Positions 20,776 through 48,845 of a DNA stretch of 48,845 nucleotides are shown one piece after another. The stretch's first letter is position 1; the number at the start of each line of letters is the position of its first letter. Position numbers and translations under genes: made by a program. Origin of the DNA: Acidobacteriota bacterium (GTDB taxonomy: Bacteria > Acidobacteriota > CAIWXX01); NCBI GenBank assembly GCA_016191015.1, contig JACPPM010000123.1:1-48845 (forward strand). Reading direction: 5' to 3'. The notes under the pieces were generated by a model that searched no databases, was not told the DNA's origin, and saw only the letters and a program-made list of their open reading frames with translations.

Positions 20776-20906
20776 AGAAGTTGATTGTTTGCAAAAAATG
20801 GCAAAAACTTTGACGTGGCGTGGTCTTCCGGACTCCTCTCCGGGAAGAAGGAAGGGAGGAATGCAGAAACGGACCGCTGGTTCGGGACGATCAGAGTGCC
20901 ACGGGC
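20776..20906 (-). repeat. Diverged upstream block, copy A
   Basis: Aligned without gaps to 48715-48845, with the best conservation in three parts. These are AGAAGTTGA-TGTT at the left end, AAATGGCAAAA, and AGGAAGGGAGGAATGCAG near 20849-20866. A further match TCAGAGTGCCA / TCAGGGTGGCA falls at exactly the same offset (115 bp). Overall identity is roughly 65-75% over about 126 bp. Read on the minus strand, the block leads into the start of the cyclase-like gene about 38 bp later. The other copy leads into the methyltransferase gene about 27 bp later. Confidence 0.62.
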
Positions 20907-47869: not shown

Positions 47870-48688
47870 TCAGTCAAGAAAGACGATCTGGCGCAGATGA
47901 TCCTGTGATGTCATCAGGCGCAGCAGATTGGAATCTCTCGGCTTCTCCTGAACCGGAGCGATGTACAGAGTCGCGGCCAGGGTGAGCTCCTCGTAGGCCG
48001 TCTCCAGCTCGGACAGTACGATCGGGACCATCATTGTTTCGATACACGGATCGGGCGCAGCACGGCAGATCATGAGCTCATGTGAGCTGGGGTAGAACTG
48101 TAGAAGATGCCTCTTGAAGAGTTCGAATCGCCGCGGCCGATTTTTCCCTCTGAAGGCCAGGAAGCTCTCGACGGATCCGATCTGAAGAATCAGGCAAGGG
48201 ACATCCTGTTGAAGGGGTCGGTGTCGAAGCAGAAGATCGTTGGCCTCGTAGATCTGGAGGCCGCGCACGACCGGGTCCAGGCCCAGAAGGACCATGAGCA
48301 CATCAAGGGACGAAATCCCCGGGAATACTTTTGTGCGTAGGCCGCGCTCATGAGCTCTCTTCAGGAGGATCTGCGTGGGGGTAGCGCCGTAGAGGGGGTG
48401 GCCGTAGAGGGCGAGCGCGACGGGAGGGTCCAGAGAGGCCGCCATCAGCGTGCGCTCCGCCATCTCCTCATACGTCTGACTACGCTGCTTGAAGTCCGCG
48501 TACTCGGATCGCAGGTTGAATGTCCGTGGACAGAACCCCGGAAGATGAATCTGAGCCGCGGGTCTCGGATCCACGTAGTATATGGACTTGCACTGCCGGA
48601 GCGCGCGTTCAACTTCCCGCGTGACCTGCTCGAAGCCATAGATCCCCAGCCCGACGATGTAAACGTGAAAAGGAGGCTCCAGCTCCAT
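47870..48688 (-). CDS. Tetrapyrrole-methylase-fold methyltransferase, borosin alpha-N-methyltransferase-like
   Basis: A 272-residue SAM-dependent enzyme. ATG 48688 is chosen because GAGGAGGTGAG lies just before it and the fold starts there. The opening VYIVGLGIYGFEQVT is the SAM-binding loop of tetrapyrrole methylases. The pattern then follows borosin peptide N-methyltransferases (OphMA, SonM) rather than cobalamin enzymes: KQRSQTYEEMAE, ALYGHPLYG, VFPGISSLDVL, LQIYEANDLLLRHRP, LILQIGSVESF. Tyr63, Arg69 and Tyr73 align with OphMA Tyr66, Arg72 and Tyr76, which I recall as catalytic. It ends 20 residues after the fold, so no precursor or core peptide is fused. A split-borosin enzyme that methylates backbone amides of a separate peptide is the best inference; the substrate is not found in the window. 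Confidence 0.8.
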   Translation of the reverse strand: MELEPPFHVYIVGLGIYGFEQVTREVERALRQCKSIYYVDPRPAAQIHLPGFCPRTFNLRSEYADFKQRSQTYEEMAERTLMAASLDPPVALALYGHPLYGATPTQILLKRAHERGLRTKVFPGISSLDVLMVLLGLDPVVRGLQIYEANDLLLRHRPLQQDVPCLILQIGSVESFLAFRGKNRPRRFELFKRHLLQFYPSSHELMICRAAPDPCIETMMVPIVLSELETAYEELTLAATLYIAPVQEKPRDSNLLRLMTSQDHLRQIVFLD

Positions 48689-48714
48689 TCTCACCTCCTC
48701 AAGGTTAGTGTCTA

Positions 48715-48845
48715 AGAAGTTGAGTGTTGACACGAAATGGCAAAACGTTCGAGTGGGTGAGATCCTCCGAACCCCTCTCAGGAAAGCAGGAAGGGAGGAA
48801 TGCAGGAATGGAGCAGTCATCTCCGGAGCTCAGGGTGGCATCGAA
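48715..48845 (-). repeat. Diverged upstream block, copy B (cut by window edge)
   Basis: The counterpart of 20776-20906, in the same orientation, 27 bp upstream of the methyltransferase start. Shared words are AGAAGTTGA, AAATGGCAAAA, AGGAAGGGAGGAATGCAG and TCAGGGTGGCA, all at identical offsets. It continues to the last base of the window, so its full length is not known. On the minus strand it places a TTTTGCCATTT motif about 60 bp before the gene. Confidence 0.62.

Follow-up and report, generated by a model that had tools for sequence, protein, structure and literature searches.

Within the analysed stretch of 48,845 nucleotides (the window), we focused on a gene close to the right-hand end, hereafter the query, and on the DNA that immediately flanks it. 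Four features describe the locus:

47870..48688, minus strand: predicted borosin-type peptide alpha-N-methyltransferase of the tetrapyrrole-methylase fold, 272 aa, without fused leader or core (from sequence, profile and fold comparison)
48395..48502, minus strand: codons 63-98, with the predicted active-site residues Y63, R69, Y73 and Y95 and the YGHP motif (from alignments with SonM and OphMA)
48693..48699, minus strand: ribosome-binding site AGGAGGT, four bases 5' of the ATG (read from the sequence)
48705..48845, plus strand: left 141 bp of a dispersed repeat of ~249 bp, inside which the contig ends; not part of the enzyme system, but it hides the upstream neighbour (99.3% identity to the consensus used)

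We observed an intact, uninterrupted frame of 272 codons on the minus strand, with its ATG at 48688 and its stop at 47870, where the preliminary description had placed the gene. The start at 48688 is backed by the strong ribosome-binding site that directly precedes the ATG, and the GC content by codon position 1/2/3 (0.66/0.39/0.72) is coding-like. A longer open reading frame with an ATG at 48820, preferred by the mechanical ORF list, is not the gene; its start falls in repeat DNA. The 293-bp gap downstream and the 157-bp flank upstream are as originally reported. The frame encodes NLRSEY-x5-R-x3-Y, YGHP, PGISSLD and LYIAP, the motifs previously claimed for it, together with YEANDLLLRHRP, and the protein stops shortly past the YIAP strand with a C-terminal extension ending DHLxxI. 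As in split borosin methyltransferases (types IV-X), there is no fused core or clasp, which implies a separate peptide substrate, as had been argued from the early end of the protein. Downstream of the query lie a protein without a family and with a secreted-like beginning, and an HD-domain protein; both appear unrelated, and we found no RiPP genes on this side.

The contig itself (contig 68), and not just the window, terminates at 48845 inside the repeat, which begins 17 bp upstream of the query start codon. The ~249-bp element (TTAGTGTCTAAG...CCGCGTTAGG) contains internal inverted repeats and occurs in one palindromic form. At least ~40 copies at 93-100% identity are present in the genome, many of them at contig ends; the genome is estimated to be 100% complete, but is divided into 349 contigs, with many of the breaks lying in this repeat. 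The part within the window has no match in Rfam. A copy at 79% identity lies in the window at 20776-20873, and further copies were seen in L031-L080 and L089-L104. The right part of the repeat begins ~30 other contig ends, none of which was singled out as the upstream contig by a target-site duplication or a precursor. Contig 219, where a B12/radical-SAM gene faces the repeat, was rejected as the upstream neighbour when its radical-SAM protein scored below every RiPP family cut-off. The open frame at 48705-48845 was likewise dismissed as the tail of a precursor gene, as it consists of repeat DNA.

Next to its single Pfam domain, TP_methylase (PF00590, E 3e-14), the query is closest in sequence to the borosin enzymes. 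A phmmer search of the PDB returned MroMA (9e-20), dbOphM (1.5e-19), OphMA (~1e-17) and SonM (2e-17), followed by diphthine synthases at E 0.6-0.7. A three-row profile of the query and its relatives from Haloarcula and Nannocystis sharpened this separation, with dbOphM at 7e-44, OphMA at 1e-39 and SonM at 4e-33, and the best non-borosin match at 5e-4. The query thus has the tetrapyrrole-methylase fold and stands nearest to OphMA and SonM, not to corrin, diphthine or RsmI methylases. An AlphaFold2 model, from a set of five window and locus proteins, was of moderate quality (pLDDT 74, pTM 0.72). When it was used in a Foldseek search, the matches among the 50 listed were all borosin enzymes (E ~1e-17 to 1e-15). 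Superposition on the borosin crystal structures gave a TM of ~0.45 and an rmsd of ~9, which we read as two halves oriented unlike those of the crystals, so that the model supports the fold but not its details. The affinity to borosin enzymes that had been proposed from the letters alone is therefore borne out by both sequence and predicted fold. Best matches to CobA/CbiF or RsmI, which would have spoken against it, were not obtained, and cobalamin enzymes scored far lower.

Alignment with the characterized enzymes places Y63, R69, Y73 and Y95 of the query opposite Y58, R67, Y71 and Y93 of SonM and Y66, R72, Y76 and Y98 of OphMA, so that all four positions are kept. In the first segment, NLQQFY-AQNGEVKN-R-RDT-Y of SonM aligns with NLRSEY-ADFKQ-R-SQT-Y of the query. 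The substitutions Y58F, R67K and Y71F in SonM reduce efficiency by ~14-, 97- and 98-fold with varied precursor, and Y93F causes a 1.6-fold loss with a higher KM for SAM (Miller et al., PMC8429565). The alignment upholds the catalytic set of Tyr63, Arg69 and Tyr73 suggested earlier and extends it by Y95; loss of the set, which would have argued against a borosin-type enzyme, was not seen. In the Nannocystis relative, R, Y and YGHP are kept and the equivalent of Tyr63 is lost. The catalytic set is thus not fixed in the lineage, and this counts against the reading that we prefer.

To place the query, we computed a maximum-likelihood tree of 61 sequences. SonM, OphMA, MroMA and most bacterial homologues form one branch (support 95/97), which includes every borosin methyltransferase in the tree that has been validated; the query falls outside it. 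Instead, it groups with the Haloarcula and Nannocystis proteins (100/96), with an inner pair of query and Nannocystis (99/77). These three join by long branches and the grouping is flagged as possibly false, although a C-terminal tail, LL...S-DHL--I, is common to the query and the Haloarcula proteins and lends their grouping some added support. The Nannocystis protein is the closest relative found (36-37% identity), and the Haloarcula protein is 33% identical over 99% of the query. The motifs of OphMA and SonM are present, but the original statement that they are tracked over the whole length is too strong for a protein outside the validated branch, with ~25-30% identity and a higher YabN-model score than classical borosins have. 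From its sequence, the query is probably a borosin-type methyltransferase, likely a split one, from a deep-branching lineage; we do not count it among the type IV (SonM-branch) enzymes.

Homologues occur in only 12 of 396 Acidobacteriota genomes, and the one other genome of the same class that we examined contains no relative. This rarity in the phylum suggests that the gene was likely acquired by horizontal transfer. Scanning genome contigs for relatives with a narrow pattern yielded four loci, and because the pattern was narrow, the lineage is under-sampled. No relatives were found in phage records or in two of three viral-contig scans. Separately, an IMG/VR contig classed as viral (L026 4542-5768) carries a borosin methyltransferase with an N-terminal borosin-binding domain (BBD) and an acidic linker.

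The two nearest relatives lie in gene neighbourhoods that point to peptide substrates. The archaeal one is listed here:

L083 7728-10894: candidate archaeal split borosin cluster, Haloarcula sp. CBA1115 plasmid NZ_CP010533.1 (SG26_RS19885/RS19880/RS20925)

Its gene order is MSHQTVVDIIERSMSDLTFAHRFKSDPETILQEYDDLTKEEAKALKSGNQNKLNEIVEKRANGIQIAGIVLPSSEA, methyltransferase, prolyl oligopeptidase. The BBD precursor has 71-76 aa, lies 79 bp upstream of the methyltransferase and was recovered by our BBD model at E 3e-7 in the scan; an ABC transporter gene lies upstream on the opposite strand. The prolyl oligopeptidase matches PDB prolyl endopeptidases at 2e-81, with OphP among the matches. The fungal omphalotin methyltransferase is also paired with a prolyl oligopeptidase, OphP, according to PMC12235650. 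In Nannocystis poenicansa FL3 (NZ_CP114040.1), a leader-peptide gene (L027 9270-9977) lies upstream of the methyltransferase and overlaps its start via ATGA. The encoded protein consists of a helical leader, a long Pro/Gly stretch and a helical-looking C-terminal part, and it matches PF14407 weakly (E 9e-4). Further genes downstream encode a sulfotransferase, a 2OG oxygenase and a TIGR03975 RiPP radical-SAM C-methyltransferase (658 bits, cut-off 282); the query genome contains no TIGR03975 member above the cut-off that might mark a Nannocystis-like cluster. It is quite possible, if somewhat short of probable, that the query, Nannocystis and Haloarcula enzymes make up a deep lineage of their own among split borosin-type methyltransferases, one that reaches across Bacteria and Archaea and acts together with further RiPP chemistry. 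In the archaeon, the partner would be a prolyl oligopeptidase, as in the fungal omphalotin system; in Nannocystis, it would be radical-SAM C-methylation.

We then asked where precursors are kept in related loci, using a BBD model (A6) that was built from eight homologous loci and run over all methyltransferase loci. A separate BBD gene lies upstream of the methyltransferase in 18 of 20 loci, 12 to 873 bp away and on either strand (6 of the 18 were also used to build the model), and ~1.2 kb downstream in the other 2; other loci have the domain fused to the enzyme. Over the window and the whole query genome, model A6 found nothing significant (best E 0.57). The same was true over the genome for model A8, which includes the Haloarcula and Nannocystis leaders (best E 0.44), and PF14407 had no match there. 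The ~30 repeat-flanked contig ends contain no BBD-like frame within 1.5 kb. A weak BBD match in C168 was discarded as fortuitous; it covers 24 residues of an ORF that lies opposite a larger gene. The sensitivity of the model is uneven: a held-out Haloarcula precursor was recovered at E 1e-6, and a held-out Nannocystis leader was barely seen (E ~2). A divergent precursor would thus escape detection, which makes the negative search weak counter-evidence.

The contig breaks in the repeat on the very side where relatives keep their precursor, and so its absence from the assembly is not evidence that it is absent from the organism. The enzyme had been described as lacking a visible precursor. This is accurate for the window, where the BBD models found none, but it need not carry over to the organism, as the contig stops on the side where relatives keep their precursor. 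The proposal of a split borosin fares similarly: the stand-alone enzyme, its fold and its residues agree with it, and on the side of the precursor the contig ends in the repeat 157 bp upstream and no BBD was found. As far as can be told, the missing precursor is an assembly effect, and on the best reading it is either unassembled or divergent.

Taking these observations together, we consider it probable that the query acts in trans, as a split borosin-type methyltransferase from the deep lineage that it shares with Nannocystis and Haloarcula, with its precursor most likely encoded directly upstream, beyond the repeat. The frame, the homology, the active-site residues, the repeat at the contig end and the gene layout in relatives are observed; a peptide as substrate, N-methylation of its backbone, dimer formation and the position of the precursor are parts that we infer. 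As in SonM and OphMA, a query dimer would hold the separate precursor by a helical leader, the BBD, while the C-terminal core of the precursor threads through the active site. There, the target amide would be polarised and kept in place by Tyr63, Arg69 and Tyr73, and successive SAM-dependent methylations of backbone nitrogens would proceed along the core in the N- to C-terminal direction. Less likely than a precursor past the repeat is one that was cut off by it, leaving the enzyme an orphan.

In this last scenario, insertion of the repeat would have cut the gene off from both promoter and precursor, and it would now be substrate-less or decaying. The closeness of the repeat to the start codon, the failure to find a BBD or PF14407 gene in a genome estimated to be complete and the lack of RiPP genes downstream would all fit such a relic. 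Against this, neither the frame and its ribosome-binding site nor the motifs and codon pattern show any damage, and a genome so often broken in the same repeat does not establish that the precursor is absent; we regard a relic as unlikely.

Slightly less likely still is a non-peptide methyltransferase of the same fold that acts in a small-molecule pathway, stands near the methylase half of YabN and only resembles borosin enzymes. Besides the position outside the validated branch, this is suggested by the family models, among which NCBIfam YabN is the best for the query (62.7 bits). The query, Haloarcula and Nannocystis lineage scores 60-68 bits with this model, compared to 35-42 for classical borosins, and an outlying group (L028) also reaches 60. 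These scores are our main reason for caution about the substrate, and they fit a position nearer the family root. As an identification, YabN fails: the score is far under the cut-off of 525, the methylase half alone is matched, and the protein has no MazG half or any other second domain. In addition, the query retains R69 and the YGHP tyrosine. Both of its nearest relatives have a gene resembling a peptide precursor immediately upstream; a RiPP maturase is encoded near one of them, and a prolyl oligopeptidase gene adjoins the other. A corrin or 16S rRNA (RsmI) methylase, which would have the PF00590 domain in common, is very improbable, given 13-19 bits for cobI/cobJ against cut-offs of 163-246, no match to solved corrin enzymes in the PDB, no RsmI model among the family-model matches and a separate, far stronger PF00590 protein elsewhere in the genome (contig 89, E 3e-47); diphthine synthase was rejected at E 0.6 or worse.

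Several other loci deserve mention in their own right. In Acidobacteriaceae, borosin-like methyltransferases with YGNP and PGISSLD (L028 8291-10786, L029 8421-10624, L021 3-2283) have as neighbours a radical-SAM maturase of the GrrM/OscB cyclophane type and a small precursor with N-W/N-F repeats at its end, so that peptides with both cyclophane and N-methyl groups are possible. In Sphingomonas sp. ERG5 (L030 9793-9957), a 54-aa ORF in which ARVVRQLTSVPK occurs three times immediately precedes a highly divergent methyltransferase with QGNP and no YGHP. A BBD precursor with ~ten tandem AIKAKTAP/A repeats after the leader (L022 1011-1460, minus strand, G317) is divergent from a borosin methyltransferase. 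At L020 2381-3543 (minus strand, G285), a methyltransferase whose tail is rich in Pro and Gln has two proteins encoded upstream of it: one full of TFPPPP-type repeats, and a BBD protein whose tail is YPQQ-rich. Finally, in L008, L012, L013 and L015 (G029, G042, G067), borosin methyltransferases occur in arrays of up to three, among them one that is fused to an N-terminal BBD, and the arrays adjoin a frame with many copies of LSPDGLQALKLAPEDGLSAAKAAPD.

Backbone N-methylation contributes to the stability and membrane permeability of peptides, and for engineering it is the trans-acting enzymes that are of use. On its own, the window contributes a single orphan enzyme; the lineage to which it points is of greater importance, and the novelty lies there rather than in this gene. 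The branch that underlies everything now known of borosin enzymes does not include this lineage. No borosins outside fungi and bacteria are described in the open-access literature that we examined, and in the archaeal plasmid locus the precursor, the methyltransferase and the prolyl oligopeptidase are encoded next to one another, an arrangement that is directly testable.

Compared to known systems, the query shares the fold of the YabN methylase half, its nearest curated NCBIfam model, but not the score or the MazG domain of that family. YabN is not known to have the borosin active-site Arg. The query resembles SonM of the split, type IV SonM/SonA system of Shewanella oneidensis (PMC8429565) in being a stand-alone protein of ~263-272 aa with the same fold and Y/R/Y/Y set and no fused core. 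It differs in lacking the three-residue insertion between Y58 and R67, in its place outside the SonM/OphMA branch, in the C-terminal extension ending DHLxxI and in having no precursor in view. The fused fungal enzymes OphMA, dbOphMA and MroMA are the highest-scoring solved relatives and have the same catalytic residues, but they continue into a C-terminal clasp and core (~400 aa), whereas the query ends after the fold. The Nannocystis enzyme departs from the query in the lost Tyr63 equivalent and in its RiPP cluster with TIGR03975, sulfotransferase and 2OG oxygenase. The Haloarcula enzyme matches the query over almost its entire length, in the C-terminal tail and in the full active-site set; in contrast to the unrelated-looking genes downstream of the query, it has a BBD precursor on its upstream side and a prolyl oligopeptidase on its downstream side, and an ABC transporter is encoded close by.
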